64,000 bases of DNA from an uncultured Rhodocyclaceae bacterium. GTDB lineage: Bacteria > Pseudomonadota > Gammaproteobacteria > Burkholderiales > Rhodocyclaceae. Numbering within the stretch: position 1 is the stretch's first letter; every line of letters starts with the position of its first letter. Of this stretch, positions 41,212 to 64,000 are shown piece by piece. Both the position numbers and the translations under genes were made by a program. Location of the stretch: the NCBI GenBank assembly GCA_907163225.1, contig OU015322.1, forward strand, positions 3,384,501 to 3,448,500. Reading direction: 5' to 3'. The notes beneath the pieces are model-generated. The model did no database searches. It had not been told where the DNA came from and saw only the letters and a program-made list of their open reading frames with translations.

Positions 41212-42053
41212 TGCCCCGCCTCTTGGCCGCCGTCCTTCTTGGGCTGGCATTTGCACTGCCAGCGTATTCAAATGCCGACGAAGCACCCCCCATCCTTCTG
41301 GCGAACGTCTATCGCGACCAGATTGATCTTTCGCGTTACATGGTCAGCGAAAAGCTCGATGGCATTCGGGCGATCTGGGATGGTCAGGTCTTGCGTTTCC
41401 GCAGTGGCCGAACCATCAATGCGCCAGCCTGGTTTATCGCCGATCTGCCGAAACAGCCTCTGGATGGCGAGCTCTGGATCGCGCGCGGCCAATTCGAGCG
41501 CGTTTCCGGTATCGTGCGGCGCGAGGTTCCGGATGACGCCGGCTGGCGAGATGTGCGCTACATGGTTTTCGAATTGCCGGGGGCGCCCGGGCCGTTCAGC
41601 CAACGCGTCGAGCAGATACGCCATCTGGTTCGCCAAGCCAATGTGCCTTGGTTGATAGAAATTCAGCAGTTTTTTCCGGTTGACCGTGGAAGTCTGAAAA
41701 AGCGCTTCGACGACGTCGTTCGCGGCGGCGGCGAAGGCCTGATGCTGCACCTCGCCGATGCACCCTACCAAACGGGGCGCAGCGATGTGCTGCTCAAAAT
41801 GAAACCGCTGCAGGATGCCGAAGCGGTGGTAGTCGGCCATCAGCCGGGCAAGGGACGCTTTGCCGGCATGCTCGGCGCCTTGCGGGTGCGCATGCCGGAT
41901 GGACGCGAATTTATGCTCGGCACCGGATTTTCAGACGCCCAGCGACGCCAGCCACCGGCCTTGGGTACGACGGTCACCTATCGCTACCGCGACCTGACAG
42001 CCAAAGGGTTGCCGAGGTTCGCCAACTTTTTGCGGGTGCGCGAGGCGTTGTAG
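41211..42053 (+). CDS. ligE: Secreted ATP-dependent DNA ligase (Lig E type)
   Basis: This 280-residue minimal ligase has a signal peptide (LLAAVLLGLAFALPAYS, cleaved near SNA-D). The adenylation domain carries motif I SEKLDGIRA with Lys48 as the AMP-accepting residue, motif III YMVFELP, motif IV GGEGLMLH and motif V VLLKMKPLQDAEAVV; a short OB-fold follows, with TGFSDAQRR. It should seal nicked DNA in the periplasm using ATP; characterised Lig E enzymes come from naturally competent proteobacteria such as Neisseria and Haemophilus. It overlaps tyrA by one base, so its expression is probably tied to the amino-acid genes. Confidence 0.92.
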   Translation: MPRLLAAVLLGLAFALPAYSNADEAPPILLANVYRDQIDLSRYMVSEKLDGIRAIWDGQVLRFRSGRTINAPAWFIADLPKQPLDGELWIARGQFERVSGIVRREVPDDAGWRDVRYMVFELPGAPGPFSQRVEQIRHLVRQANVPWLIEIQQFFPVDRGSLKKRFDDVVRGGGEGLMLHLADAPYQTGRSDVLLKMKPLQDAEAVVVGHQPGKGRFAGMLGALRVRMPDGREFMLGTGFSDAQRRQPPALGTTVTYRYRDLTAKGLPRFANFLRVREAL

Positions 42054-45702: not shown

Positions 45703-47526
45703 ATGTGTGGCATCGTCGCAGCAGCAGCCGGCAACAACATCGTTCCCGTTCTCGTCGAAGGCCTGAAGAAGCTGGAATACAGGGGCTATGACTCAGCCGG
45801 TCTGGCCGTGATCGCAGGTAGCAGTATCGAGCGTGTCCGCTCGGTTGGCCGCGTGGCCGAACTGGAAACTGCATCGGCCAGCACGCAAGCCGTCACCGGC
45901 ATCGCCCACACCCGCTGGGCCACCCATGGCGTGCCCTGCGAGCGCAACGCCCACCCGCACGTTTCCGGCAGTATCGCCGTCGTCCACAACGGCATCATCG
46001 AAAATTATGAAATCCTGCGCACCGAGCTGACCGCTCAGGGCTACGTGTTCACCTCGGACACCGATACCGAAAGCATCGCCCACCTGATCGAAGCCACGCT
46101 CAAAAGCGAGCCCGATCTGTTCAAAGCTGTACAGGCTGCCTGCCAGCGACTGATCGGCGCCTACGCCATTGCCGTTATCGACCACACCCAACCCGGCAAA
46201 GTGATCGTCGCCCGTGAAGGCTCGCCCTTGCTGCTCGGCGTATCGGATACCGGCAACTACGCCGCCTCCGATGCCTCTGCCCTGCTGCAAGTCACCCGTA
46301 ACATGGTCTATCTGGAAAACGGCGATATTGCCGAGTTGACCGCAGCAAACGTCAAAATCACCCGCCTCGATGGCACGCCGGTCAGCCGCCCAGTGCATGA
46401 ATCCCAGCTCTCGGCCGCTGCCGTCGAACTCGGCAACTACCAGCACTACATGCAGAAGGAAATCTTCGAGCAGCCGGAAGCGCTAGCCAACACGCTCGAA
46501 ATCGTCGGCGGCAGCAAGACCATCCAGCCCGGCATTTTCGGCGCAGAAGCCGGCAACTTGCTGGCCGATGTCGACTCCATCCTGATCCTTGCCTGCGGCA
46601 CCAGCAGCCACTCCGGCTACACCGCCCGCTACTGGCTCGAAGCCATTGCCGGCGTGCCGTGCAATGTCGAAATCGCCAGTGAATACCGCTACCGCAGCTC
46701 GGTCGCCAATCCGCGCCAGCTGATCGTCGCCATCTCCCAGTCCGGTGAAACCGCCGACACGCTGGCCGCCCTGCGCCATGCCAAGAGCCTTGGCCAGACC
46801 AAGACGCTGGCCATCTGCAACGTGCCGGAGTCGGCCATCGTCCGCGAATGCGCCCTGCGCTTCATTACCCGCGCCGGCCCGGAAATCGGCGTCGCCTCGA
46901 CCAAAGCTTTCACCACCCAGCTCGCCGCGCTCTTCCTGCTCGTACTGGTCGCCGCCAAGGTCAAGAACCGTCTGACGGCCGAACAGGAAGCCGCCTACAT
47001 TCACCAGCTTCGCCACCTGCCGGTCGCAGTCAACAAGGTGCTCGAGCTCGAAGACGAGATCAAGGCCTGGGCTCAGCGCTTTGCCGACAAGCATCACGCC
47101 CTTTTCCTCGGTCGCGGTCGCCACTACCCGATCGCCATGGAAGGCGCGCTCAAGCTCAAGGAAATCTCCTACATCCACGCCGAAGCCTACCCGGCTGGTG
47201 AGCTCAAGCATGGCCCGCTGGCGCTGGTGGACAGCGACATGCCGGTCATTTCGATTGCTCCAAACGACCAGTTGATCGACAAGCTGAAATCCAACCTCAA
47301 GGAAGTTCAGGCCCGTGGCGGCGAACTGTATGTTTTTGCCGATGCCGACTCGGAAATCCCGGAATCGGATGGCGTCCATATCCTGCGTCTGCCGGAACAC
47401 TACGGCGAACTGTCGCCAATCCTTCACGTCATTCCGCTGCAACTGTTGTCGTACCACGCCGCACTGGTCAAGGGCACGGACGTCGATAAACCGCGCAACC
47501 TGGCGAAGTCGGTAACGGTGGAATGA
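45703..47526 (+). CDS. glmS: Glutamine-fructose-6-phosphate aminotransferase
   Basis: This 607-residue enzyme makes glucosamine-6-phosphate, the precursor of UDP-GlcNAc for the wall and for the Wbp sugars encoded downstream. The class II glutaminase domain begins [17 protein letters not shown] with Cys2 as nucleophile and shows [10 protein letters not shown]; the two SIS domains carry [28 protein letters not shown] and the C-terminal [11 protein letters not shown]. No glmS ribozyme is evident in the 25 bases before the gene. It could be the only glmS or a locus-specific extra copy. Confidence 0.96.
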
Positions 47527-49420: not shown

Positions 49421-50716
49421 GTGCAGTTGGATAACAAGAAAATAGCAATCATCGGTCTAGGCTACGTTGGCCTGCCGCTGGCGGTCGAATTCGGCAAGTC
49501 GCGTCCGGTAGTGGGATTCGACATCAACTTGGCGCGGATCGCCGAATTGCGATCCGGCAAGGACAGCACGCTGGAGGTCACGTCCGAGGATCTGCTTGCT
49601 GCAAAGCAGCTTTCCTACAGCAACCGTTTGGAAGATATTGCCGATTACGGCGTCTTCATCGTCACGGTGCCGACGCCGATTGACAAGGCCAATCGCCCAG
49701 ATTTGACGCCTTTGGTCAAGGCCAGCGAAACGGTGGGCAAGGTAATGAAGGCCGGGTCTGTCGTGATCTACGAATCCACGGTTTACCCAGGGTGTACTGA
49801 GGAGGTTTGCGTTCCGGTTCTGGAAAAGCATTCCGGCCTCAAGTTCAACGTTGATTTCTTCTGCGGCTACAGCCCGGAGCGCATCAACCCGGGCGACAAG
49901 GTCAATACACTGACCAAGATCAGGAAGATCACCAGCGGCTCCACACCGGATGTTGCCAAGGCGGTCGACGCCCTCTATGGCAGCATCATTACGGCAGGCA
50001 CCTTTCCGGCGACCAGCCTAAAGGTGGCCGAAGCAGCCAAAGTGATCGAGAACACCCAGCGCGACCTGAATATTGCCTTGGTCAACGAACTTTCGGTCAT
50101 TTTCGACCGGTTGGACATCGATACCCTTGAAGTCCTTGAGGCTGCTGGCAGCAAGTGGAACTTCTTGCCTTTCCGACCGGGCATGGTCGGCGGGCACTGC
50201 ATCGGCGTCGACCCTTACTACCTGACGCACAAGGCGGAAGAGGTCGGCTATCACCCGCAGGTCATCCTCGCTGGTCGCCGGATCAACGATGACATGGCAC
50301 GTTATGCTGCCCGGAACGTGATCAGACTGATGCTGCGTAATGGCATCGACGTCGCGCGCAGTACCGTCGGCGTGCAAGGTATTACCTTCAAGGAGAACTG
50401 CCCGGATATCCGTAACAGCAAGGTTGCGGATCTGGTGCGGGAACTGGAGGGCTGGGGCATCAAGGTGGTCGTTGCGGATCCATGGGCTGATGCTCAAGAG
50501 GTGGCCCATGAATATGGCATTCAGTTGGGCGCCATCGATGCCGCCCGTCCTGTGGATGCCTTGGTAGTGGCTGTCGGGCACAACGAGTTCAGGCGCGAGA
50601 ACGTTGGGGAACTGCGCGCGCTCTGCCGCGGCGAAAAGCCGGTCTTGGCTGACCTGAAGTGCCTGTTCGACCGCCATGTCGCAGCTGATGCCGGCTTCAC
50701 CGTTTTCCGCCTGTAA
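49421..50716 (+). CDS. wbpA: UDP-N-acetylglucosamine 6-dehydrogenase (WbpA/TviB type)
   Basis: This 431-residue NAD-dependent enzyme oxidises C6 of UDP-GlcNAc to give UDP-GlcNAcA, the first step toward the diacetamido uronic acid. It shows IAIIGLGYVGLPLAVEFGK, VPTPIDKANRPDLTPL, YESTVYPGCTEEVC, GYSPERINPGDK, the catalytic-Cys segment GGHCIGVDPYYLTHKAEEVG and GITFKENCPDIRNSKV. These fit the WbpA/WbpO/TviB group rather than UDP-glucose dehydrogenase. The start is GTG 49421. Confidence 0.93.
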   Translation: MQLDNKKIAIIGLGYVGLPLAVEFGKSRPVVGFDINLARIAELRSGKDSTLEVTSEDLLAAKQLSYSNRLEDIADYGVFIVTVPTPIDKANRPDLTPLVKASETVGKVMKAGSVVIYESTVYPGCTEEVCVPVLEKHSGLKFNVDFFCGYSPERINPGDKVNTLTKIRKITSGSTPDVAKAVDALYGSIITAGTFPATSLKVAEAAKVIENTQRDLNIALVNELSVIFDRLDIDTLEVLEAAGSKWNFLPFRPGMVGGHCIGVDPYYLTHKAEEVGYHPQVILAGRRINDDMARYAARNVIRLMLRNGIDVARSTVGVQGITFKENCPDIRNSKVADLVRELEGWGIKVVVADPWADAQEVAHEYGIQLGAIDAARPVDALVVAVGHNEFRRENVGELRALCRGEKPVLADLKCLFDRHVAADAGFTVFRL

Positions 50717-50725
50717 GAGGACAAA

Positions 50726-51784
50726 ATGCGTAACTACCCCACGATTACTGGCCGCAAGATCCGCATGGCGCTGGTTGGCTGCGGCCGCATCGCCGCCAAC
50801 CATTTCGGTGCCATGGAGCAGCACGCTAGTGACATCGAAATCGTCGATGTGTGCGACGTTGACCGCAACGCGCTCGACAAGGCTGTCCAGCGTACCGGTG
50901 CCAAAGGGCACCTGAGCATGACCGAAATGCTTGAGACCACGACAGCGGACGTCGTTGTACTCACGACGCCGAGTGGCTTGCATCCGGAGCAGGCGATCGA
51001 GGTTGCCGAGTCCGGCCGTCAGGTGATGACTGAGAAGCCGATGGCCACCCGCTGGCACGATGGCCTGCGCATGGTCAAGGCCTGCGACGATGCAGGGGTG
51101 AGAATGTTTGTAGTCAAGCAGAACCGCCGTAACGCCACATTGCAGCTTCTGAAACGTGCGGTCGAGCAGAAGCGCTTCGGGCGCATCTACATGGTCAACA
51201 TCAACGTCTTTTGGACGCGCCCGCAGGAATACTACGACAGCGCCAAGTGGCGCGGCACCTGGGAATTCGACGGTGGCGCGTTTATGAACCAAGCTAGCCA
51301 CTACGTCGATCTGCTCGACTGGCTGATCGGCCCGATCGAAAGCATCCAGGCTTATACCGCTACCCTCGAGCGGGACATCGAGGTCGAGGACAGTGGCGTA
51401 CTCAGCATCCGCTGGCGCTCCGGCGCGCTGGGTTCGATGAACGTCACCATGCTGACTTACCCCAAGAACCTGGAAGGCAGCATCACCATCCTCGGAGAAA
51501 AAGGCACAGTCCGCGTCGGCGGTGTTGCGGTCAACGAAATTCAGCACTGGGAATTTGCCGAGAAGTTGCCGGAAGACGAGCAGATCGCCTCGGCCAACTA
51601 CGAAACCACCTCGGTCTACGGCTTTGGTCACCCGCTCTACTACGATAACGTGATCAAGGTCATGCGCGGCGCGGCCGAGCCGGAGACCGATGGGCGCGAA
51701 GGGCTCAAGTCGCTGGAGACACTGATTGCCGCCTACCTCGCTGCGCGTGACGGCAAGCGTGTCGCGTTGCCGCTGGATTACTGA
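50726..51784 (+). CDS. wbpB: UDP-GlcNAcA 3-dehydrogenase (WbpB type)
   Basis: This 352-residue Gfo/Idh/MocA oxidoreductase oxidises C3 of UDP-GlcNAcA to the 3-keto sugar, the substrate of the WbpE aminotransferase. Motifs are [48 protein letters not shown] (the EKP catalytic lysine region) and [27 protein letters not shown]. It lies nine bases after wbpA and just before wbpD. Confidence 0.9.
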
Positions 51785-51785
51785 G

Positions 51786-52361
51786 ATGGCTGTGACCATT
51801 CATCCGAGCGCCATCGTCGATGAGGGCGCAGAAATCGGCGACGGCAGTCGCGTCTGGCACTTCGCCCACATTTGTGGCGGTGCCCGCATTGGCAAGGGCT
51901 GCTCGTTCGGCCAGAACGTCTTCGTCGGCAATGATGTCACCATCGGCAACAACGTCAAGGTCCAGAACAACGTTTCCATCTACGATGCGGTGTATCTTGA
52001 GGACGATGTCTTCTGTGGCCCGAGCATGGTATTCACCAACGTCTACAACCCGCGCTCGGCGGTTACCCGCAAGGACGAGTACCGAGTAACGCGGATCAAG
52101 AAGGGCGCGACGTTAGGCGCTAACAGTACCATCGTCTGCGGCGTCACCGTTGGCGAGTTCGCTTTTGTCGCCGCCGGCGCCGTCATCAATCGCGACGTCA
52201 AACCCTATGCACTGATGGCTGGCGTACCGGCCAGACAGATCGGCTGGATGAGCGAGCACGGCGAACGCCTCGATCTGCCGCTTGAGGGCAACGCATCCGT
52301 CAAGTGTCCGATCACCGGTAAGACTTACCGGTTGGCTGGAACGACACTGGCGGTTGAATGA
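51786..52361 (+). CDS. wbpD: UDP-GlcNAc3NA 3-N-acetyltransferase (WbpD type)
   Basis: This 191-residue left-handed beta-helix enzyme transfers acetyl from acetyl-CoA to the 3-amino group to give UDP-GlcNAc3NAcA. Hexapeptide repeats run from about residue 5 to 150 ([34 protein letters not shown]...), with the extra loop [18 protein letters not shown] typical of WbpD/WlbB. It starts at ATG 51786, overlapping the wbpB stop region. The decayed glpD-like gene begins four bases before its end. Confidence 0.93.
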
Positions 52362-53132
52362 GGGTTGCGGTTATCGGTGGCGGGATCAATGGTGTCATGG
52401 CTGCCTGGGCGTTTGCCCGGCGCGGCCACAGTGTCGATCTGTTCGAAAAAAGGCCGGCTGATGTCGGCCACCAGTCGCGCCTCCACCAAGATGTTGCACG
52501 GCGGCTTGCGTTACCTGGAACATGGCCACCTGGGGCTGGTTCGTGAGGCGCGTCAAGAGCGCTCCTGGTGGATTCAACAGGCCCCTCAATTTGCCAGCCC
52601 GCTGGAGTTACTCGTGCCGATCTATCGCAATGGCGAACGTGCGAAGTGGCTGGTTGGTGCCGGCATCCGGCTCTACGGCCTGCTGGCAAAGGGGTCGGGG
52701 TTCCCGCGCAGCTGCTGGTACAGCGCCGAGGAGGTCATCGAACGCTTTCCGGGTCTGAAGCGCGACTAGCTGCTGGGCGCCTACGGCTACTGGGATGCCC
52801 GGATGGATGACTACCGGCTTGGCCTGTGGGCGGCGGAGCAGGCCAGGGAAGCGGGGGGTTGCCATCAACGAACAGATGCCTGTCCTTTGGCTCGAGCCTG
52901 AGACAGGGGCCGTGGATACTATAACCGTTGGTTCTGTAAAGAAATAGCACGTCGGGATATAATCATAAATTTTGCCGGCATCCGACCGATTGTCGCGAGC
53001 AAGAAAGATTTTAGTGTCGCCAGCCGCGAATCAGTCATTGAGCGTCAAGGCAGGCTGATCAACGTCTTTGGTGGCAAGTGGACAACCTCGCGCGCCCTTG
53101 CCGAGGCAGTATTAATGAAATCGCAACATTGA
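52358..53132 (+). pseudogene. Decayed glycerol-3-phosphate dehydrogenase-like (GlpD/DAO family) gene
   Basis: The start is intact: [22 protein letters not shown] with the FAD-binding GGGINGxxAA motif. The run of six A at 52446-52451 has one base too many; dropping one restores GRLMSATSRASTKMLHGGLRYLEHG. The corrected frame then meets TAG at 52767-52769, after which LLGAYGYWDARMDDYRLGLW continues. A run of six G at 52853-52858 causes a second shift (corrected: GVAINEQMPVLWLEPETG). The middle of the protein is missing, and the C-terminal motif (FAGIRPIVASKKDF...INVFGGKWTTSRALAEAVL) resumes at 52971 and ends at TGA 53132. A working protein would be far longer. It stands between wbpD and wbpE, so its original role may have been sugar-related, but that is inference. 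Confidence 0.85.
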
Positions 53133-53140
53133 AAGAAACC

Positions 53141-54247
53141 ATGACAATCCAGTTCATCGACCTGAAGGCGCAGTATCAGGCGCTCAAGAACTCAATCGAC
53201 GCCCGCATCCACAAGGTGCTCGACCACGGCCAGTACATCATGGGCCCCGAAGTGGCTGAACTTGAAGGCAAGCTCGTTGAATACACGGGTGCCAAGCACT
53301 GCATCACGGTCGCCTCCGGTACCGAGGCACTGCTCATTGCCCTGATGGCAATGGGCATCAAGCCGGGCGACGAAATCATCACTACCCCGTTCACCTTCGT
53401 TGCCACCGCCGAAGTCATCGTCCTGCTGGGTGCTGTCCCGGTCTTCGTCGACATTGAAGCGGACACCTGCAACATCGATGCCAGCAAGATCGAAGCGGCA
53501 ATCACCGCGAAAACCCGCGCCATCATGCCGGTCAGCCTCTACGGTCAACCGGCCGATATGGACGAAATCAATGCTATCGCCGCCAGGCACAATCTGGTGG
53601 TGATCGAAGATGCCGCCCAGAGCTTCGGCGCCGAATACAAGGGTCGGAAAAGCTGTAACCTCTCCACCATTGGCTGCACCAGCTTCTTTCCGAGCAAGCC
53701 GCTCGGTTGCTACGGCGATGGCGGGGCGATCTTCTCCAGTGACGACGAGTTGGCCAAGGCCATGCGCGAGATCCGAGTGCACGGCCAGGAAAGACGCTAT
53801 TTCCATACCCGCATTGGTGTTGGTGGCCGAATGGATACCCTGCAATGTGCGATTGTACTGGCCAAGCTGGAGCGCTTCGACTGGGAGGTCGAGCAGCGCC
53901 TGAAGCTTGGTGCGCGCTACAACGAGATGCTGGCCGGCAAGGTGTCGACGGTGACTCAGCGCCCGGACCGGACCAGTGTTTTTGCGCAATACACCGTGTT
54001 CGTCGAGAACCGCGAGCAGGTACAGGAGAAACTCAAGGCGGCGGGAGTGCCGACGGCAGTGCATTACCCTGTACCGCTCCATCTTCAGCCGGCATATAAA
54101 GACCACTGCCGCGTGAATGCTGGGGTTCCCTCGGCAGAAGAAATGTCCGCACGCGTGATGAGCTTGCCAATGAGCGCTGATCTGACTGAGGACCCGCAAA
54201 CAGAAATTTCTGATGCATTGGCAGTGGCGATCGACAATCCCATATGA
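53141..54247 (+). CDS. wbpE: UDP-3-keto-GlcNAcA aminotransferase (WbpE type)
   Basis: This 368-residue DegT/DnrJ/EryC1 aminotransferase puts an amino group on C3 of the keto sugar made by WbpB. It shows FIDLKAQYQALKNSIDARI, ASGTEALLIALMAMGIKPGDEIITTPFTF, IEDAAQSFGAEYKGRKSCNL and the PLP-lysine segment CTSFFPSKPLGCYGDGG, then RYFHTRIGVGGRMDTLQCAIV. The start is ATG 53141, nine bases after the pseudogene stop; the upstream frame extension lies inside the pseudogene. It completes the wbpA-B-D-E set. Confidence 0.92.
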   Translation: MTIQFIDLKAQYQALKNSIDARIHKVLDHGQYIMGPEVAELEGKLVEYTGAKHCITVASGTEALLIALMAMGIKPGDEIITTPFTFVATAEVIVLLGAVPVFVDIEADTCNIDASKIEAAITAKTRAIMPVSLYGQPADMDEINAIAARHNLVVIEDAAQSFGAEYKGRKSCNLSTIGCTSFFPSKPLGCYGDGGAIFSSDDELAKAMREIRVHGQERRYFHTRIGVGGRMDTLQCAIVLAKLERFDWEVEQRLKLGARYNEMLAGKVSTVTQRPDRTSVFAQYTVFVENREQVQEKLKAAGVPTAVHYPVPLHLQPAYKDHCRVNAGVPSAEEMSARVMSLPMSADLTEDPQTEISDALAVAIDNPI

Positions 54248-54262: not shown

Positions 54263-55495
54263 ATGACTAGCGGGTTCCTGCGCAGTGTCGGTTCTGTCTT
54301 GTCCGGTACATTGGTCGCACAACTAATCCCGATAGCTGGCACTCTGGTTGTCGCAAGAATTTTTGACCCCGCAGCATTCGGTGTCTTTTCTGCCTGGCTG
54401 GGAGGGGTTCTTTTCCTCGCGGTAGTGTTGTCATGCCGTTTTGAAACATCGCTGGCGGTCGTGCCTGATGGTCAGCCGAGGCGTTCCGGTGTTGCCTTGA
54501 CGCTGGTCACAATTGCTTTGACGTCATTGATAGCTGCCGCGCTCGTATGGCTGGCAGCGCTTGTGAAATTGGAGGCATTGAACCGGTTGCCAGTGGCGCT
54601 GTTGGTGTCCGCTGTTCCGACCGCAGCCTTGATCGCAGTAAGCCAGACCTTGCAGAACTGGGCAGCGGCTGACGGGCGCTACCGGCACCTCACCTTCATG
54701 CGGATTGCGCAGGCAGGGTCGATTGTGCTGTTACAGATCGGAATTGGTATGCTGTGGCCGGATGCGACCGGCTTGGGAGTTGCTTATCTCGCGGGAACAC
54801 TCTTTGGGCTAATCGTAGGGATAGTGGTTATGCCGCTTCAGGTGACCCGTTCTCCTGGGCTAGGACGACAGTTGTTTGCCTTTTGGAGAGGCTACCGCAA
54901 CTTTCCTTTATATTCTTTGCCGGCAGATGCGGTGAACGCCGCTGCGGCTCAGTTGCCTTTACTTGTCGTCGCTGCACGCTTCGGTTCCGAAGCAGCAGGC
55001 TTGCTGGCGATGGCCATGCGCATGCTAGGCGCGCCAATGTCGCTGCTGGCCGCGTCCGTCCTTGATGTGTTTAAGCGTCATGCGGGTAAGGCCTATCGTG
55101 AGCGGGGCGAATGTAGGGCAGAGTATGTCCATGCCTTTAAAATTCTCTTGGTGGTCGCCGTTGCTGCAGCCGTGGCTATAGCGTTTGGAGCCGAGCCTGT
55201 CTTTGCTGCGGTTTTCGGCGAGATGTGGCTGGGGGCGGGTACGATGGCGCTGTGGCTTCTTCCTCGTTTTGCAATCGGGTTTGTCGCCAGCCCCCTAAGC
55301 TACATGGTCTATGTTGCCGGAAAACAGCATCTTGACCTGATCTGGCAACTTACGCTGCTTGGCATGACTTTGGCCACACTGCTTCTGAGCGATTCGACGC
55401 AATGGGCTCTGATATCATATGGCATCGGCTATGGGGGGCTTTATTTGGTTTATATTCTAATGTCATATAAGTTCAGTCTCGGGGGCAGACGGTGA
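54263..55495 (+). CDS. wzx: Wzx-type oligosaccharide flippase
   Basis: This 410-residue membrane protein has about twelve hydrophobic helices in the pattern of the polysaccharide-biosynthesis (MATE-like) exporters, starting FLRSVGSVLSGTLVAQLIPIAG. It should flip lipid-linked repeat units across the inner membrane for the polymerase encoded downstream. No soluble domain is present. It starts at ATG 54263, 15 bases after wbpE, and overlaps the hisH paralogue by four bases. Confidence 0.85.
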   Translation: MTSGFLRSVGSVLSGTLVAQLIPIAGTLVVARIFDPAAFGVFSAWLGGVLFLAVVLSCRFETSLAVVPDGQPRRSGVALTLVTIALTSLIAAALVWLAALVKLEALNRLPVALLVSAVPTAALIAVSQTLQNWAAADGRYRHLTFMRIAQAGSIVLLQIGIGMLWPDATGLGVAYLAGTLFGLIVGIVVMPLQVTRSPGLGRQLFAFWRGYRNFPLYSLPADAVNAAAAQLPLLVVAARFGSEAAGLLAMAMRMLGAPMSLLAASVLDVFKRHAGKAYRERGECRAEYVHAFKILLVVAVAAAVAIAFGAEPVFAAVFGEMWLGAGTMALWLLPRFAIGFVASPLSYMVYVAGKQHLDLIWQLTLLGMTLATLLLSDSTQWALISYGIGYGGLYLVYILMSYKFSLGGRR

Positions 55496-56097
55496 TCGCA
55501 ATAATTGACTACGACGTTGGCAATATCTCCGCCGTAGCAAACATGCTGCAACGCCTCGGAGTGCGATCAGTAATGACCAGTGATCCTGCTGTCGTAGCCG
55601 AGGCCGACCGGATCATCTTGCCGGGCAATGGCTCCTTCGACGCCTGCATGAGGAACCTGCGGGCTACTGGATTGGTGCCGCTTCTTGAGCAACGTGTCCT
55701 GGACGATGGGGTTCCGCTGCTCGGAATCTGTGTTGGAGCGCAGATGCTGGGTTCGCGTAGCGAGGAGGGGAGCGAACCTGGTTTGGGTTGGCTAGACATG
55801 ACGGTCCATCGCTTTCCCAATGTGGATGGTTTCCCAGTCCCACACATGGGGTGGTGCGAAGTGTTTCCTGCCCAGAGGGGGCATCCCCTGGCAAATGATC
55901 TGGCGGATAACTCACGATTTTATTTCGTCCATAGTTATTTTATGCTACCGGCCGATCCTGCTGATGTGCTGCTTAAGGCTACTTACGGTCGAGAGTTCGC
56001 CGCAGCGGTCGCGCGCGATAACGTGTCGGGCGTTCAATTCCATCCCGAGAAGAGCCATCGCTACGGCAAAGAGCTTCTTGCGGCTTTTGCGAGGTAG
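55492..56097 (+). CDS. hisH: HisH-like class I glutaminase for sugar amidination
   Basis: This 201-residue glutamine amidotransferase releases ammonia from glutamine. The catalytic triad is present: Cys80 in LLGICVGAQML, and His184 and Glu186 in GVQFHPEKSH. True histidine-pathway HisH proteins are close in sequence, but the gene sits in a polysaccharide locus beside a hisF paralogue and wbpG, as in P. aeruginosa O5, where HisH2/HisF2 supply ammonia to WbpG. GTG 55492 overlaps the wzx stop. Confidence 0.9.
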   Translation: MIAIIDYDVGNISAVANMLQRLGVRSVMTSDPAVVAEADRIILPGNGSFDACMRNLRATGLVPLLEQRVLDDGVPLLGICVGAQMLGSRSEEGSEPGLGWLDMTVHRFPNVDGFPVPHMGWCEVFPAQRGHPLANDLADNSRFYFVHSYFMLPADPADVLLKATYGREFAAAVARDNVSGVQFHPEKSHRYGKELLAAFAR

Positions 56098-56102
56098 ATG
56101 CA

Positions 56103-56846
56103 ATGCGCCGGGCACGAGTCATTCCCTGTCTGCTGATTCAAGGAAACGGTCTCGTCAAGACGAGGAAATTTAAAGACCCAGTGTACGTCGGCGATCCCAT
56201 TAATGCGATGAGGATCTTCAGCGACAAGGAAGCTGACGAGATTGTGGTTCTTGACATCGACGCATCAAAGAGGGGATTCGAGCCAAACTACGAGTTGATC
56301 TCCGAGATGGCTGGCGAGGCGTTCATGCCCATGGCTTACGGTGGCGGCGTGACCAACGCTGAGCAAGTGCGGCGTTTGATACGCTGCGGTATAGAAAAAG
56401 TTGTAGTTAACTCGGCATCTGTTCGTTCGATGGAATGGATACGTGAGGCAGTTGGTGTTTTCGGGAGCCAAGCCATCGTCGGGGCGGTGGATGTCAAGAA
56501 AACCTTGTTGGGCGGCTATCGTGTGGTCACAAGATCGGCGACTGAAGATGCTCAGGTTGACCTAGATCACCATATTGCGAATCTCGTGACCGCCGGGGTA
56601 GGCGAAATATTCATTAATTCAGTCGATCGTGACGGTTCTATGTCGGGGTACGACCTGCAACTCATCCAGAGAGTGGTGAGAAATCTGAGTGTGCCGCTTG
56701 TCGCATGCGGTGGCGCGGGAACGGTCGAGCACTTGGCAGAGGGTGTTCGCAACGGCGCCTCTGCGGTTGCCGCAGGCAGCATGTTTGTTTTTCACGGCAA
56801 GCATCGTGCAGTACTGATAAATTACTCAAACGAATTGTCGCTTTGA
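56103..56846 (+). CDS. hisF: HisF-like ammonia-channel subunit, active-site Asp replaced
   Basis: This 247-residue TIM barrel starts MRRARVIPCLLIQGNGLVKTRKF. In functional HisF the segment reads PCLDV-type, with a catalytic Asp (Asp11 of Thermotoga maritima); here residue 11 is Leu. The second catalytic Asp, in GAVDVKK, is kept, as is SVDRDGSMSGYD. Loss of the first Asp argues against imidazole-glycerol-phosphate synthesis and for a dedicated role with WbpG. AYGGGVTN and CGGAGTVEHL are the usual phosphate-binding loops. It abuts the polymerase gene. Confidence 0.9.
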   Translation: MRRARVIPCLLIQGNGLVKTRKFKDPVYVGDPINAMRIFSDKEADEIVVLDIDASKRGFEPNYELISEMAGEAFMPMAYGGGVTNAEQVRRLIRCGIEKVVVNSASVRSMEWIREAVGVFGSQAIVGAVDVKKTLLGGYRVVTRSATEDAQVDLDHHIANLVTAGVGEIFINSVDRDGSMSGYDLQLIQRVVRNLSVPLVACGGAGTVEHLAEGVRNGASAVAAGSMFVFHGKHRAVLINYSNELSL

Positions 56847-58219: not shown

Positions 58220-59368
58220 ATGATAAGTACAACTGCTCGGCGTCTGTGCACGAAATGCGTAATGGATTGTTCAGATCCAGAGATATTGTTCGACGATTCT
58301 GGAGTTTGTAATCATTGCCTCAAGTTTGATCAGGTTGCGTCGCAGCAATGGTTTCCTGACGCAGAGGGACGCCGCCGTTGGGCGGGAATTGCCGATGAGA
58401 TCAAGGTAGCCGGTGCTGGGCGTGAGTATGACTGCATCCTCGGCTTGAGTGGCGGCGTCGATAGCTCGTATCTTGCACTGAAGGCTCTGGATTGGGGGTT
58501 ACGGCCATTGGTCGTGCATGTCGATGCCGGCTGGAACAGTGAACTCGCTGTTGCAAACATCGAGCAGATAGTCAAGCATTGCGGCTATGACCTTCATACC
58601 CATGTCGTCGACTGGGAGGAGATGCGTGACTTACATCTTGCCTACCTGCGGGCCGGGGTCGCCAACCAGGATGTCCCGCAGGATCACATCTTCTTCGCTA
58701 GTCTTTATCACTTCGCGACGAAAAATGGAATCCGCTACATCCTGTCCGGAGGCAATCTCGCGACGGAGGGCATATTTCCTGATGCCTGGCATGGTAGCGC
58801 GATGGATGCGATCAACCTGCGGGCTATCCACAAACGCTTTGGAGAGCGCCCCCTCAAGCACTATAAGACGATCAGTTTCTTCGACTATTACCTTTGGTAT
58901 CCATTCGTCAAGAAGATGCGGACGGTGCGTCCGCTCAACTTCATGCCCTATGTCAAGGCTGAGGCTCTGCTGGAACTGGAGCAGACAGTCCGGTATAAGC
59001 CCTATCCGCGAAAGCACGGGGAGTCGCTCTTCACCAAGCTCTTTCAGAATTATTATCTGCCCACCAAGTTTGGTTATGACAAACGCCGGCCGCATTTGTC
59101 GAGCCTGATTGTCTCCGGGCAGATGACCCGGCAAGAGGCTTTGGCCAAGCTTAAAGAGCCGCTCTACGATGCACAGGAGCTAGAGATCGATATTGCCTAT
59201 TTCTGCAAGAAGTTGCGGATCAGCCGAGCACAGTTCGACGAGCTGATGAATGTCGCTCCGCATCATTTCTCCGACTTCGCCACCTGGGACGGGCGGTATC
59301 GCCTGCTCAAGAAGGCGCAGGCGCATGTCGAGCGCATCATTGGTAAGCGAGTCCGTGTTTACTCCTGA
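58220..59368 (+). CDS. wbpG: N-acetyl sugar amidotransferase (WbpG type)
   Basis: This 382-residue PP-loop ATPase uses ammonia from the HisH/HisF paralogues to turn an acetamido group of a nucleotide sugar into an acetamidino group. Cys10/Cys13 (CTKC) and Cys30/Cys33 (CNHC) look like a metal-binding site; the PP-loop is LGLSGGVDSSYLALKAL (77-83 core). ILSGGNLATEG and FFDYYLWYPFVKKMRTVRPLNFMPY follow, typical of the WbpG/PseA group. The chain lacks its own glutaminase domain. Together with hisH and hisF it forms a three-gene amidination module split by wzy. Confidence 0.9.
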   Translation: MISTTARRLCTKCVMDCSDPEILFDDSGVCNHCLKFDQVASQQWFPDAEGRRRWAGIADEIKVAGAGREYDCILGLSGGVDSSYLALKALDWGLRPLVVHVDAGWNSELAVANIEQIVKHCGYDLHTHVVDWEEMRDLHLAYLRAGVANQDVPQDHIFFASLYHFATKNGIRYILSGGNLATEGIFPDAWHGSAMDAINLRAIHKRFGERPLKHYKTISFFDYYLWYPFVKKMRTVRPLNFMPYVKAEALLELEQTVRYKPYPRKHGESLFTKLFQNYYLPTKFGYDKRRPHLSSLIVSGQMTRQEALAKLKEPLYDAQELEIDIAYFCKKLRISRAQFDELMNVAPHHFSDFATWDGRYRLLKKAQAHVERIIGKRVRVYS

Positions 59369-60524
59369 GGCTGTCATAACGCCGCGTACGCAGAGTTTGG
59401 CGGGGCGGACGCGCATCGCCCACCTGACTTCGGCTCACCCGCGGGACGATATTCGCATATTTCTGAAGGAGTGCCGGAGTCTCGCCCTCGGTGGGTACGA
59501 TGTCCATCTGGTAGTCGCGGACGGGCTTGGCGACGCAGAATCGAATGGGGTTTGCATCCACGATGTTGGTAGGCTCACAGGTCGTTTGAATCGCATGTTC
59601 AGGACCACACGAAATGTCTTTGCATTGGCCAAGTTGCTGAAGGCTGACATTTATCACTTGCATGATCCGGAACTGATCCCAATTGGACTTAAGCTCAAAA
59701 AATGCGGAAAGATAGTCATTTTTGATGCGCACGAGGATGTACCCAAGCAACTTCTGAGCAAGCCTTATCTGAACAAGCCCGCGCTGTGGGCGCTGTCCAA
59801 GGTATTTGGCGCGTTCGAGTCGTGGGCATGCCGCCGCTTTGGCGGCGTGATTGCAGCCACGCCTTTCATCCGTGACAAATTTTTGGCCATCAACCCCAAT
59901 ACGGTGGACATCAACAACTTTCCCATGCAGGGCGATCTGGCCAGTGACGTGGCATGGGGCACCAAACAGCCCGAAGTTTGTTATGTGGGTGGGATTGCCC
60001 AAATCAGGGGCATTCAAGAGGTGTGTCAGGCAATGGGTTTGGTCACTTCCAACGCACGGCTCAATTTGTGTGGTGGGTTCGAAAGCCCTGTGCTTGAACA
60101 AGCTGTTCGAGCCATGCCCGGCTGGCAGCGCGTGCATGCCCATGGGTTTGTCAGCCGTGAGGGCGTGCGTGATGTGTTGTCGCGCTCTGTGGCGGGTTTG
60201 GTGACCTTGCACCCGACGATCAATTACTTAGACGCACTGCCTGTCAAGATGTTTGAATATATGTGTGCTGGCATTCCTGTGATTGCATCGGATTTTCCGC
60301 TGTGGCGCGACATCATTGCAGGCAACAATTGTGGCTTGTTGGTGGACCCGATGAAACCTAAAGCCATCGCCGAGGCCATTGATTATTTAGTGACGCACCC
60401 GCAAGAAGCCATCCGCATGGGAGCCAACGGCCGCCGTGCGGTGGATGAGGGTTACAACTGGGCCGTGGAAGAGCAGAAGCTGCTGGCGTTTTATGAACGC
60501 GTGTTGGGGAATCAACAGAATTAA
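59355..60524 (+). CDS. Glycosyltransferase, GT4 family
   Basis: This roughly 389-residue GT-B enzyme transfers a sugar to the growing lipid-linked oligosaccharide on the cytoplasmic face. It shows RIAHLTSAHPRDDIRIFLKECRSLALGGYDVHLV, IYHLHDPELIPIG, DAHEDVPKQ and the donor-binding ALPVKMFEYMCAGIPVIASDFPLWRDI. The start is uncertain: GTG 59355 overlaps wbpG by 14 bases, while ATG 59325 gives ten more residues. It occupies the position of wbpH. The second half of the gene uses codons and bases more like the fused amidotransferase downstream than like wbpG. Confidence 0.87.
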   Translation: MFTPEAVITPRTQSLAGRTRIAHLTSAHPRDDIRIFLKECRSLALGGYDVHLVVADGLGDAESNGVCIHDVGRLTGRLNRMFRTTRNVFALAKLLKADIYHLHDPELIPIGLKLKKCGKIVIFDAHEDVPKQLLSKPYLNKPALWALSKVFGAFESWACRRFGGVIAATPFIRDKFLAINPNTVDINNFPMQGDLASDVAWGTKQPEVCYVGGIAQIRGIQEVCQAMGLVTSNARLNLCGGFESPVLEQAVRAMPGWQRVHAHGFVSREGVRDVLSRSVAGLVTLHPTINYLDALPVKMFEYMCAGIPVIASDFPLWRDIIAGNNCGLLVDPMKPKAIAEAIDYLVTHPQEAIRMGANGRRAVDEGYNWAVEEQKLLAFYERVLGNQQN

Positions 60525-60648
60525 AAAAGTTACCGTCTTGAGTGCACGCCCACCGTTGTGGGCCTTGGGGCAGCAGGGTGCAAATGTGCAGCCTTATGGG
60601 GCCGGGGATGCGGCACAGAGAATTGTGGAAAAGCTGAGGAATTATTGA
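60525..60648 (+). pseudogene. C-terminal remnant of a UDP-GlcNAc(3NAc)A 2-epimerase (WbpI/WecB family)
   Basis: The frame ending in TGA at 60646-60648 reads GANVQPYGAGDAAQRIVEKL and then RNY. This matches the very C-terminus of non-hydrolysing 2-epimerases, where E. coli WecB ends NPYGDGQACSRILEALKN. The residues P-Y-G-x-G-x-A-x-x-R-I-x-E-x-L align. The rest of the protein is gone: just upstream is the stop of the glycosyltransferase gene. Its stop overlaps the ATG of the fused amidotransferase by one base, as if the complete epimerase gene once led into it. In P. aeruginosa O5 wbpI lies exactly here, after wbpG and wbpH. Confidence 0.7.
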
Positions 60649-62468
60649 TGTGTGGAATTTTTGGGATTATTTCGAATTTAAATATTGTAAAAAATGACCT
60701 CAGGCTGTTGGCCCATCACTCAGAACAGCGCGGTAAAGACTCAAGCGGCCTGTTTATGAGCAACGTCAATGGCTACGACCTTCACCGTGCCAACAAGGCC
60801 ATCACTTCTTTGTTGAAAGATATCAACACTGCCACAAGCGGCTTGGTCATGGGGCATAGTCGCTTGATTACTAATGGCTTGGCGGACAATCAACCCGTTT
60901 ATCGTGATGATGTCTGTGTGATTCACAACGGTATTGTTGTAAATCATGACGCTTTGTGGGCTCAGGTCGGTAAAACACGGCAACAAGAGATTGACACCGA
61001 AATCATTGCGGCCATTGCTGCAGACCACCTGGAAAATGGTGGCACAGCGGAGGGCGTTGCCAAGCGCGTGCTCAGCCTTTGTGAGGGTGTAGTGGCCTGC
61101 GCCTTGGCCTTGCCAAGGCTGGGCAAGCTCTGTTTGTTCTCTAACAACGGTAGCCTTTACCACGGTACCAAGGATGGTGCGCATTATTTTGCTTCGGAGA
61201 GCTTCCCGCTGAAGCAGTTGAAATGCGAGTCTGTAGTCCAAGTGCGAACTGAGGGAGTGGTGCTTGACATTCCCGCCGCAGCGAATCAGCCGCAAATTCA
61301 TGAGCATGCCCAGCGCACCACGAATCTGATCCCCAGCCTGGGCACACACAAGGCCGAAGAGGCGATGTTAGAGTACAAACGCCACAACATTCAGCGGTGT
61401 ACGCGTTGCATTCTCCCTGAAACCATGCCTTACATCCGCTTTGATGGTGCTGGTGTTTGCAACTATTGCCACACCTACAAACCGCGCAATAGACCACGCC
61501 CTGTTGAGGAGATCTTTAATCTGGTTGAGCCTTATCGCCGTGCGCATGGTGACGATTGTATCGTTCCGTTTTCGGGCGGTCGTGACAGTTGTTATGGTCT
61601 GCATTTGATCGCCAAAGAGCTGAAGATGAAGCCGGTCACCTATACCTATGATTGGGGAATGGTGACGGATTTGGGACGTCGCAACATTAGCCGCATGTGT
61701 GCCGAGATGGGCATCGAGAATATCATCGTGGCTGATGACATCGCGCTGAAACGTCGAAATATCGCCAAGAATTTGCAAGCATGGCTCAAAGCCCCCCATT
61801 TGGGTATGGTGAGCATTTTGACTGCCGGTGATAAACATTTTTTCCGCCATGTAGAGACCGTGAAGCAGCAAACCGGCATTTCACTCAATCTGTGGGGCGT
61901 TAACCCGCTGGAAGTGACGCACTTCAAGGCTGGTTTCCTGGGCGTGCCACCAGACTTTGAAGAAGAAAGAGTGTATTCGCATGGCGCTATGAAGCAGTTG
62001 CGTTACCAGTGGCTGCGGTTAAAGGCCATGGCCCAAAGCCCCGGCTATTTCAACAGTTCGTTGTGGGATACCCTGTCTGGTGAGTATTACCGCAGTTTTA
62101 ACAAGAAGACAGACTATTACCACATATTTGATTACTGGCGTTGGGATGAAAAGACTATCGACGATACCCTGATTAACCAGTACGACTGGGAAACGGCGCC
62201 CGATACAAATACCACTTGGCGCATTGGTGATGGAACTGCAGCTATTTACAACTATATCTATTACACCGTTGCAGGGTTCACAGAGCACGACACTTTTCGC
62301 AGCAACCAGATTCGCGAAGGTGACTTGACTCGCGAGGAGGCTTTAGCGTTGGTGGAGGATGAAAACCGCCCCCGCTATCCCAACATTAAATGGTATTTGG
62401 ATGCAATTGGGATGGATTTTGCTGATGTGATTCCGGTCATCAACCAAATACCCAAACTTTATTGTTGA
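60648..62468 (+). CDS. Class II glutamine amidotransferase fused to a WbpG-like PP-loop sugar amidotransferase
   Basis: This 606-residue protein starts MCGIFGIIS at ATG 60648, putting the Ntn nucleophile at Cys2. Residues 1-215 form a class II glutaminase (HSEQRGKDSSGLF, GHSRLITNG, VIHNGIVVNHD). Residues 245-606 form an N-acetyl sugar amidotransferase: Cys251/Cys254 (CTRC) and Cys271/Cys274 (CNYC), the PP-loop FSGGRDSCYGL (308-315 core), YTYDWGMVTDLGRRNISRM, then NPLEVTHFKAGFLG. It should make its own ammonia and deliver it internally, so unlike WbpG it needs no HisH/HisF. The substrate is unknown; an acetamido sugar of the locus is the likely candidate. It is not asparagine synthetase, whose synthetase domain differs. 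Confidence 0.88.
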   Translation: MCGIFGIISNLNIVKNDLRLLAHHSEQRGKDSSGLFMSNVNGYDLHRANKAITSLLKDINTATSGLVMGHSRLITNGLADNQPVYRDDVCVIHNGIVVNHDALWAQVGKTRQQEIDTEIIAAIAADHLENGGTAEGVAKRVLSLCEGVVACALALPRLGKLCLFSNNGSLYHGTKDGAHYFASESFPLKQLKCESVVQVRTEGVVLDIPAAANQPQIHEHAQRTTNLIPSLGTHKAEEAMLEYKRHNIQRCTRCILPETMPYIRFDGAGVCNYCHTYKPRNRPRPVEEIFNLVEPYRRAHGDDCIVPFSGGRDSCYGLHLIAKELKMKPVTYTYDWGMVTDLGRRNISRMCAEMGIENIIVADDIALKRRNIAKNLQAWLKAPHLGMVSILTAGDKHFFRHVETVKQQTGISLNLWGVNPLEVTHFKAGFLGVPPDFEEERVYSHGAMKQLRYQWLRLKAMAQSPGYFNSSLWDTLSGEYYRSFNKKTDYYHIFDYWRWDEKTIDDTLINQYDWETAPDTNTTWRIGDGTAAIYNYIYYTVAGFTEHDTFRSNQIREGDLTREEALALVEDENRPRYPNIKWYLDAIGMDFADVIPVINQIPKLYC

Positions 62469-62475
62469 GCGGTCC

Positions 62476-63723
62476 ATGAGCAAATGTATCTGGTACGTCT
62501 CTAAGTATGTCGCGCCGCCCGGGAAGTGCAGCGCCGGGGGGCGAGGCTACCTGCTGATGAAGGAATTTGCCCGGCTCGGGTGCCGTTCTGTCATCATCAC
62601 CTCGGATTCCAACCAGTTGACACAGGTTCCAAGCTTGGACCAACCGTATCTTCGTCAGGAAGTCGACGGCATCCAACTGTGGTGGGTTCGGACCCTGAAG
62701 TATCAGGTGGCGAAATCGGTTCGCCGCATTCTGAGCTGGATCGATTTCGAATGGCGCCTGCTATTGATCCCGAGGGGGAATATTCCAAGGCCCGATGTTG
62801 TCGTGGTGTCAAGCCTTTCGCCATTGACGGTGGTGAATGGATTCCTGCTCCGGAGGCGTTACCGGTGCCGTCTGGTTTTCGAGATCCGGGATATTTGGCC
62901 ACTGACGATTACTGAGGAGGGCGGATTCAGTCGCTACAACCCTCTCGTTGTTGGACTGGCATGGATCGAACGCCTGGGGTATCGCTATGCTGACGCCATT
63001 GTGGGGACGATGCCGAACCTCCGCGAGCATGTCGCAGATGTGTTGGGCCAGGAGAAATCTGTCGGGTGTATTCCGATGGGGATTGACGGCTCGATGCTTG
63101 TCGAGTCGCTCGACGTTCCGGATGATTACGACGCCAAGTACCTTCCCAAGGGGAAGTTCGTGGTCGCGCACGCAGGCACGATCGGCATCACGAATGCACT
63201 TGACACCTTTCTCGATTGTGCCGAGTCGCTAGCCGGCAATCCCGCGATCCATTTCCTTGTCGTGGGCGATGGAGACCTGCGCGAGCACTATCAAACCAAA
63301 TATGGGCATCTGCCAAACCTGACCTTCGCACCGAAGGTGCCGAAGGGAATGGTGCAGGCAGTCCTCGCCAAGTGCGACCTGCTTTATTTCTCTGTCCATG
63401 TGTCGGCGGTGTGGCGTTTCGGCCAGTCCCTGAACAAGGTGATCGACTACATGCTCTCCGGCAAGCCGATCGTTGCGTCGTACACGGGGTACCCCTCGAT
63501 GATCAATGAGGCGGATTGCGGAACCTACGTTCCTGCTGGCGATGTGGCGGCGCTGTGTGCCGAGGTCCTTCGCTACAGCCTGTTGCCGGAATCCGAACGG
63601 AACGCCATGGGCGCGCGGGGTCGGGAATGGATTCTTGCCCATCGCAGCTACGAGGAGTTGGCCAGGGAGTATCTGGCGATACTGTTTCCCTTGCCACCAC
63701 TGGCTTCGGCGGCCACCGGATGA
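62476..63723 (+). CDS. Glycosyltransferase, GT4 family (WbuB-like)
   Basis: This 415-residue GT-B enzyme has SKYVAPPGKCSAGGRGYLLMKEFARLGCRSVIITSD at the N-terminus, the RDIWPLTI motif common in WbuB-type transferases, VVAHAGTIGITNALDTFL and the donor-site SLNKVIDYMLSGKPIVASYTGYPSMI. WbuB-type enzymes add N-acetylfucosamine or related amino sugars. It occupies the position of wbpJ in the O5 order. Its GC-rich codon use returns to that of the chromosome. The end overlaps the phosphoglycosyl transferase gene by four bases. Confidence 0.88.
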   Translation: MSKCIWYVSKYVAPPGKCSAGGRGYLLMKEFARLGCRSVIITSDSNQLTQVPSLDQPYLRQEVDGIQLWWVRTLKYQVAKSVRRILSWIDFEWRLLLIPRGNIPRPDVVVVSSLSPLTVVNGFLLRRRYRCRLVFEIRDIWPLTITEEGGFSRYNPLVVGLAWIERLGYRYADAIVGTMPNLREHVADVLGQEKSVGCIPMGIDGSMLVESLDVPDDYDAKYLPKGKFVVAHAGTIGITNALDTFLDCAESLAGNPAIHFLVVGDGDLREHYQTKYGHLPNLTFAPKVPKGMVQAVLAKCDLLYFSVHVSAVWRFGQSLNKVIDYMLSGKPIVASYTGYPSMINEADCGTYVPAGDVAALCAEVLRYSLLPESERNAMGARGREWILAHRSYEELAREYLAILFPLPPLASAATG

Positions 63724-64000
63724 AGCGGCTGTTCGACGTCCTTGCTGCCGCGTTGGCATTGGCTGTGCTCGGTTTGCCCATGCTTGTCCTTGCAGGAGTT
63801 GTGCGCTCAAAGCTCGGTTCGCCAGTTCTGTTTCAGCAGGTTCGCCCTGGCCGTTACGGTCGACCGTTCAAAATGATCAAATTCCGAACAATGCGCGATG
63901 CTGTCGACGCGCATGGAAAGCCGCTACCGGATGCCGAAAGGATGACGCCGTTCGGTAATTTTTTGCGTTCGGCTAGCCTCGATGAATTGCCGGAGTTGTG
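63720..64000 (+). CDS. Undecaprenyl-phosphate sugar-1-phosphate transferase, 3' end cut by window edge
   Basis: Only the first 93 codons are visible. They show a single N-terminal membrane helix or re-entrant hairpin (MKRLFDVLAAALALAVLGLPMLVLAG), SKLGSPVLFQQVRPGRYG, FKMIKFRTM and SLDELPEL, whose Asp-Glu pair is the catalytic dyad of PglC-like monotopic phosphoglycosyl transferases. It should start each repeat unit by moving a sugar-1-phosphate onto undecaprenyl phosphate. The short N-terminus without four extra helices fits the small PglC/WcaJ-core type rather than WbpL, which is polytopic. Confidence 0.9.
   Translation, partial: MKRLFDVLAAALALAVLGLPMLVLAGVVRSKLGSPVLFQQVRPGRYGRPFKMIKFRTMRDAVDAHGKPLPDAERMTPFGNFLRSASLDELPEL

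Follow-up and report, generated by a model that had tools for sequence, protein, structure and literature searches.

A class II glutaminase fused to a WbpG-like PP-loop domain: a candidate self-contained amidotransferase of O-antigen sugars

We describe a fusion protein encoded at 60648..62468 (+ strand) of the window, a 64,000-nucleotide stretch of contig OU015322.1 (assembly GCA_907163225.1) from an uncultured Rhodocyclaceae bacterium. Its single chain of 606 amino acids joins an N-terminal class II glutaminase to a C-terminal PP-loop domain of the N-acetyl sugar amidotransferase (NASAT) type, that of WbpG and WbuX, and the gene lies in an O-antigen cluster. The fusion is a variant form of an already known kind of amidotransferase, and it comes with a testable substrate prediction. 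It is very likely a glutamine-dependent PP-loop amidotransferase. The best explanation as a whole, towards which we lean slightly, is a self-contained glutamine- and ATP-dependent O-antigen amidotransferase that would make an acetamidino group on a 2,3-diacetamido hexuronate.

Domain structure of the fusion protein

The translation of 60648..62468 comprises 606 residues and a stop codon and begins with MCGIFG, which contains Cys2. A longer mechanical open reading frame (ORF) from GTG 60558 is the less likely reading, because an N-terminal nucleophile (Ntn) glutaminase requires Cys as residue 2. An earlier note on this DNA had read the protein as a class II glutaminase joined to a WbpG-like PP-loop enzyme, and both parts of this reading were borne out. 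The glutaminase half (residues 1-205; 60648..61262) was matched by Pfam GATase_6 (residues 63-184) and GATase_7 (77-187), both above their cut-offs, and NCBIfam matches to the N-terminal parts of GlmS, PurF and AsnB were confined to residues 1-206. Besides Cys2 it holds Arg72, Asn94-Gly95 and Asp116, to which we assign, by presumed analogy with GlmS, the roles of the glutamine-binding Arg, the oxyanion Asn-Gly and the Asp.

The NASAT-type half (residues 247-606; 61386..62465) was matched over residues 249-571 by NCBIfam TIGR03573, 'N-acetyl sugar amidotransferase' (WbuX), at 131.3 bits (E 5.3e-38), a score below the curated membership cut-off of 203.2 bits, as were those of the fusions in all 41 genomes scored. 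Its motifs are RCTRC (Cys251, Cys254) and CNYC (Cys271, Cys274), which span 61398..61469 as a tetracysteine motif, and FSGGRDSC, which contains the PP-loop SGGRDS (residues 309-314; 61572..61589). In the solved relative 8WEX the tetracysteine is a zinc site (PMC10607449). A profile of the C-terminal half aligned by hhalign with a profile of 15 stand-alone WbpG proteins at 99.8% (E 2.6e-28, 327 columns, 24% identity), but not with a 4-sequence AsnB/WbpS profile (probability 1.5%). No AsnB-type match was found in this half by Pfam or NCBIfam scans.

Among PDB sequences the fusion matched best 8wex, a NASAT of L. pneumophila, and 1xff, the glutaminase of GlmS. An AlphaFold model built with 45 natural sequences had a mean predicted local confidence (pLDDT) of 89.9 and a predicted template-modelling score (pTM) of 0.90, with a weak loop at 439-445. 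Foldseek placed 8wex first (E 1.7e-15, TMt 0.58, 19% identity), followed by asparagine synthetase and GlmS, and the GlmS glutaminase domain was recovered at TMt 0.67-0.68. The two outcomes that the earlier note held to tell against it thus did not arise: the C-terminal half was not assigned to an asparagine synthetase or tRNA-modifying family, with 1.5% against AsnB/WbpS, and the glutaminase fold was recovered.

The name 'glucosamine 6-phosphate synthetase', carried by the public E. coli record and one of two Agrobacterium records, would make the fusion a GlmS-type sugar-phosphate aminotransferase. The N-terminal half is indeed GlmS-like, but a Pfam scan of the fusion found no SIS isomerase domain, the C-terminal half is a PP-loop domain and the window genome already has two GlmS copies. 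GlmS identity was rejected on the missing SIS domain, and we regard this reading as having practically no chance of being right.

Conservation and phylogeny of the family

A scan of a genome collection returned 67 loci encoding relatives of the fusion, a lower bound since the scan was pattern-based. Sixty-two of them align from residue 1 to 604 or 605, and 60 of those share 61-87% identity in the best segment; with so many relatives near full length, the fusion is not a chance product. They come from Beta- and Gammaproteobacteria, Bacteroidota and Campylobacterota, besides single records labelled otherwise, and matches on plasmids were two Agrobacterium records at 73% and one Solidesulfovibrio record at 42%. 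The latter bears the name '7-cyano-7-deazaguanine synthase' and has two asnB genes downstream. Among 369 sampled genomes of the class to which the window belongs, a full-length fusion profile found members at E <= 1e-60 in 3 (its own genome included); of 299 genomes of the phylum, 33 had a TIGR03573 match above the cut-off.

Conservation was read from an alignment of 74 fusion rows, representing 72 different proteins (L025/L080 and L076/L077 are identical pairs; the partial L064 was omitted). Cys251, Cys254, Cys271 and Cys274 and the SGGxDS residues (Ser309, Gly310, Gly311, Asp313, Ser314) are kept in all 74 rows, as are Gly95 and Asp116, and Arg72 and Asn94 are kept in 73, the exception being L059. 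Met1-Cys2-Gly3 is invariant across a 45-row alignment of fusions other than L059. The NASAT half has the higher median identity to the window fusion, 79% (72 rows) against 51% (73 rows) for the glutaminase half. A sister group (L062, L063, L075 and L081), to which the Solidesulfovibrio plasmid fusion belongs, has longer fusions of 648-673 amino acids at about 40% identity, with inserts visible in the glutaminase half of L063.

The two halves were placed in separate trees. For the NASAT domain, a set of 114 was reduced to 88 rows by omitting near-identical fusions and fragments shorter than 280 amino acids; a split with 100/100 support placed 40 stand-alone NASATs on one side and, on the other, 47 fusions together with L078, the phage domain. 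In the glutaminase tree, from which nine rows had been dropped (the second copy of the L081 fusion, near-duplicates and overlapping loci), 20 fusion rows formed one clade on the GlmS/PurF side, split from 18 AsnB-type domains with 100/98 support; this tree holds only three GlmS/PurF rows, with PurF on a long branch, and the AsnB group was chosen as outgroup. Membership in AsnB/WbpS was rejected on this placement together with the hhalign result for the C-terminal half. Since neither half is closely akin to WbpS/AsnB, the AsnB-like layout of the fusion looks convergent, as judged from these comparisons.

Tailed phages appear to carry the fusion enzyme or its synthetase half. Three IMG/VR contigs (L076, L077 and L078) were found, each with a terminase match above cut-off, and a second viral scan returned the same three. 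L076 (L076:5001-6827) and L077 encode identical fusions with 57% identity to the query and are perhaps one phage sampled twice. L078 (L078:4989-6101) encodes a free-standing NASAT half adjoining glycosyltransferase and pyruvyltransferase genes; no glutaminase ORF was found in the preceding 5 kb, the part of the 119.5-kb contig that was searched. Four records of a phage collection matched by the glutaminase part only. Among phage neighbours, a PHROGs scan matched one of nine proteins and Pfam none of the five tried on L076.

No description of the fusion was found in the literature, most subscription journals lying outside the coverage. The family is real and well conserved, often carries a wrong name and, to judge by the literature searched, is unstudied.

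The fusion with and without the WbpG system

The earlier note had proposed that the fusion replaces a three-protein machine consisting of WbpG, HisH2 and HisF2. For the window genome this was not upheld, as all three lie in the same cluster: a HisH2-type class I glutaminase (55492..56097; TIGR01855, 218 bits, above cut-off), a HisF2 of the AglZ/HisF2 acetamidino family (56103..56846; NF038364, 337.7 bits against a cut-off of 310) and a stand-alone WbpG/WbuX-type NASAT (58220..59368; TIGR03573, 315.8 bits, above cut-off), all on the + strand. The companion statement, that the fusion uses a glutaminase class other than that of HisH2, was correct (class II against class I).

Elsewhere the replacement idea held in part. 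Of the 67 genome loci, 41 entered genome-wide searches for HisF2, NASAT and WbpD; the E. coli cluster L073 was not among them, and the HisF2 search additionally covered two plasmid records. Replacement fits the 23 fusion genomes in which no stand-alone NASAT scored above the curated cut-off, but not the other 18, which retain one. HisF2 scored above its cut-off in 17 of the 41, namely in 17 of the 18 genomes with a stand-alone NASAT against none of the 23 without (cells 17, 1, 0 and 23; Fisher 1.2e-10). No HisF2 was found above cut-off in the remaining 24, many of which are drafts, and HisH2 was not searched genome-wide. Because many of these genomes are drafts, single absences are weak evidence; the overall pattern is not. 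As far as gene content tells, the fusion apparently does alone a job done by three proteins in related bacteria.

The sole genome with a stand-alone NASAT and no HisF2 above cut-off, G683, is that of Alcaligenes endophyticus, which encodes L059 (L059:8001-9713). The glutaminase half of L059 is degenerate: it has no MCGIFG start, the Arg72 and Asn94 positions are altered and identity to the window fusion is 22%, against 71% in an intact NASAT half. With a degenerate glutaminase and no HisF2, both the L059 fusion and the stand-alone NASAT of this genome may therefore use free ammonia or an unrecognised donor.

The E. coli example is another cluster without the WbpG system. At blastn sensitivity the fusion was found in 2 of 5426 E. 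coli genomes. Between galF and gnd, L073 carries two transposase remnants and genes for a Gfo/Idh protein, TviB, an acyltransferase, an aminotransferase, a flippase-like protein, an O-antigen polymerase, two glycosyltransferases, a WecB-type epimerase and the fusion. Its annotation in this interval contains no HisH2, HisF2 or WbpG; the hisH and hisF genes of this record are those of the histidine operon. This gene set would predict N-acetylglucosamine and two residues of the 2,3-diacetamido-2,3-dideoxy-mannuronic acid (ManNAc3NAcA) type, one of them modified. By the title of a paper, E. albertii O1 reportedly has an O-antigen resembling that of P. aeruginosa O5. According to a figure legend, the O-antigen of P. 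aeruginosa PAO1 contains ManNAc3NAcA and ManNAc3NAmA.

One account of these distributions is redundancy, in which the fusion is a single-chain equivalent of WbpG/HisH2/HisF2, acting on the same sugar with the same N-3 acetamidino product, and has been exchanged or doubled between clusters. It is consistent with the 23 genomes that have the fusion alone, each with WbpD within 27 kb, and with L073, annotated with a ManNAc3NAcA-type gene set and the fusion alone. Yet it explains poorly why 18 of the 41 genomes, and the window genome, keep a stand-alone NASAT, and the separation of the two clades at 100/100 also speaks against it; we consider it improbable. The sharing of clusters by the fusion and a WbpG system suggests instead that the fusion acts on a sugar or position other than that of WbpG.

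Association with WbpD and the predicted substrate

New here is the observation that a WbpD homologue occurs in every fusion genome searched: a search with the window WbpD at E <= 1e-40 gave a match in all 41 of 41, the weakest at 4.5e-63. In 36 it lies on the contig of the fusion and always within 27 kb (median 11.3 kb), and all 23 genomes with the fusion alone are among these. In the other five WbpD lies on a different contig, and all five have a stand-alone NASAT. For comparison, WbpD was found in 10 of 31 genomes that have a stand-alone NASAT only, with some matches inside longer frames, and in 32 of 340 genomes of the class, at least three of which (G000, G162 and G231) carry the fusion; the taxon samples compared are unlike and the genomes non-independent (several Chryseobacterium and Pseudomonas), so that a p-value for the association is not to be read at face value.

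Within the WbpA/B/E/D pathway, WbpD is the enzyme that adds the N-3 acetyl group. For 20 of the 23 genomes with the fusion alone, stretches of about 28 kb were inspected with the E. coli protein as WbpD query: 15 contain both WbpD and WbpE, and in the remaining five the two genes are 21-27 kb apart, which puts WbpD beyond the stretch. Only three of the 20 contain a 2-epimerase, which thus seems optional for the pathway of the fusion. A nucleotide-sugar 6-dehydrogenase was found in 32 of 32 fusion genomes tested and in 13 of 14 control genomes. WbpA/B/E/D is the pathway of 2,3-diacetamido uronic sugars (PMC10622841, PMC7468200). Because WbpD is present in 41 of 41 genomes and the epimerase seems optional, the substrate of the fusion is very probably a WbpD-dependent 2,3-diacetamido hexuronate, whichever the epimer.

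Proposed reaction and its alternatives

In the proposed reaction, the N-terminal Ntn half would release ammonia from glutamine through its Cys2 nucleophile, and the ammonia would be channelled within the chain. The NASAT half would use ATP to activate an acyl oxygen of the sugar (PP-loop, AMP-forming), which ammonia would then substitute. The substrate would be a 2,3-diacetamido-2,3-dideoxy hexuronate made by WbpA/B/E/D, as a nucleotide sugar or lipid-linked, and the product would carry an acetamidino (N-acetimidoyl) group, its N-acetyl group having been converted with the glutamine nitrogen. The modified sugar would be used with the neighbouring glycosyltransferase, and where both systems exist, the fusion would modify another residue, or another nitrogen, than WbpG/HisH2/HisF2 does. 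An amidine is probably the product, because NASAT relatives make acetamidino groups and the tie to WbpD is strict. For WbpG and WbuX this activity is reported in PMC10607449.

Several points weigh against an acetamidino product. We know of no activity or product for any member of the fusion family. NASAT chemistry need not be inherited, as the TIGR03573 score is well under the curated cut-off. L059, with its degenerate glutaminase half, and phage L078, with none, fit the proposal badly. Were the fusion and the stand-alone NASAT to form one identical group on one sugar, their coexistence in 18 of 41 genomes would be strange. In shared clusters WbpG would make the amidine and leave an amide to the fusion, a uronate-forming dehydrogenase is present in all 32 genomes tested, and the link to WbpD would equally suit a uronamide synthase with 2,3-diacetamido uronates as its substrates.

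The last three points favour the main rival, in which the fusion would turn the C6 carboxylate of a 2,3-diacetamido hexuronate into an amide, a chemistry of the WbpS type carried out by a NASAT-type PP-loop domain. The AsnB layout is a class II glutaminase followed by a PP-loop synthetase, and the fusion shares it with WbpS/AsnB. These are the known uronamide enzymes (PMC7468200). However, neither half of the fusion is WbpS-like (1.5% for the C-terminal half against AsnB/WbpS; the N-terminal half on the GlmS/PurF side), and the NASATs with a known assigned role, WbpG and WbuX, make acetamidino groups. An enzyme that acts on the carboxylate alone would have no necessary dependence on WbpD, which nevertheless is present in 41 of 41. 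Moreover, another WbpS/AsnB-type match at E <= 1e-80 occurs in 25 of 42 genomes, closeness to the fusion not being counted; only that of the window genome, an exosortase-type gene far from the cluster, scores above the cut-off of that family. Such matches weaken the amide reading, just as coexistence with WbpG weakens plain redundancy, and we judge a uronamide synthase unlikely, though less so than redundancy.

A broader possibility, which we put forward tentatively, is that the fusion represents a separate, unrecognised class in which a GlmS-like glutaminase and a NASAT-like domain act on 2,3-diacetamido hexuronates to install a group that WbpG does not make, for example an N-2 acetamidino group or a uronamide formed by NASAT chemistry. 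If this is true, clusters like that of the window install two nitrogen modifications via two unrelated ammonia-delivery systems.

Comparison with known systems

With WbpG, WbuX and the L. pneumophila NASAT the C-terminal half shares the tetracysteine CXXC...GXCXXC, the PP-loop SGGxDS and the 8WEX fold; in contrast to them, the fusion has a class II glutaminase in the same chain, scores 131 bits against the 203 of the cut-off, forms its own clade and occurs without HisF2 above cut-off in 24 of 41 genomes. Its layout and presumed logic, an Ntn glutaminase feeding an AMP-forming PP-loop site, are those of WbpS/AsnB, whereas neither half is closely related to them and the tetracysteine motif is particular to the fusion in this comparison. 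GlmS and PurF resemble the N-terminal half in sequence and fold, but their isomerase or phosphoribosyltransferase domain was not found in the fusion by Pfam. Another single-chain joining of amidination parts was seen at L103:202-2619, where one open frame encodes a HisF2-like barrel and a NASAT domain and overlaps a HisH-like frame (HisF and HisH labels by inspection). Unlike the fusion, it still has the HisF barrel together with a glutaminase of class I, and it is distant from the fusion in the NASAT tree.

Both serotype and surface charge depend on acetamidino sugars, and a partner-free single chain would make NASAT chemistry directly testable. The working mechanism of NASATs is described as little known in PMC10607449. 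Correcting the name 'glucosamine 6-phosphate synthetase' would also improve O-antigen predictions, the family being common (67 loci).

The O-antigen cluster of the window

The genes of the window cluster follow the order dehydrogenase, Gfo/Idh protein, WbpD, aminotransferase, flippase, HisH2, HisF2, polymerase-like protein, WbpG, glycosyltransferase, fusion, glycosyltransferase and sugar transferase; the genes of this order that are located in this paragraph and the next are on the + strand. The nucleotide-sugar 6-dehydrogenase of the TviB/WbpA type (49421..50716) is above the TIGR03026 cut-off and reaches 574.7 bits with the TviB model, just under 592. The Gfo/Idh/MocA-type dehydrogenase (50726..51784) has sub-cut-off matches only and is called WbpB by position. 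The WbpD-type hexapeptide N-acetyltransferase (51786..52361) was identified by a Hexapep match, position and homology to the acyltransferase of the E. coli cluster. The DegT-type aminotransferase (53144..54247; PseC/WecE-like matches below cut-offs) is WbpE by position, and the Wzx-like flippase (54263..55495) is above the Polysacc_synt_3 cut-off.

GT4-type glycosyltransferases, assigned by Pfam and NCBIfam, flank the fusion upstream (59250..60524), where the gene is presumably WbpH-like, by gene order only, and downstream (62476..63723; WcaI-like, below the family cut-off). An ORF that by inspection encodes an initiating sugar transferase starts at 63717 and runs past the window end (63717..63998). 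Beyond the end, read as L135, lie acetyltransferase-, aminotransferase- and dehydratase-like ORFs, also named by inspection. The order wbpG-wbpH-wbpI-wbpJ of P. aeruginosa O5, the serotype of PAO1, resembles that of the window, with the fusion near the expected place of wbpI. Two WecB-like epimerases with 40% identity are encoded elsewhere in the genome, outside the cluster.

Among 70 loci, the commonest next gene belongs to the cluster of the downstream glycosyltransferase, starting less than 400 bases 3' of the fusion in 40. The next gene is the c22 ORF in eight, a second glycosyltransferase-like c21 (by sequence reading) in six and another gene in ten; six have none, four of these being at a contig end.

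Three further observations were made in the window. A complete GlmS is encoded at the edge of the O-antigen cluster (45703-47526), with a 99% identical second copy elsewhere in the genome. Between WbpD and WbpE, a short frame (52365-52769) matches 110 residues of the 353-position profile of DAO (FAD-dependent oxidoreductase) and looks like a gene remnant. At 41211-42053 lies a gene for a small ATP-dependent DNA ligase-like protein, with DNA_ligase_OB_2 above cut-off and, by eye, an apparent signal peptide.

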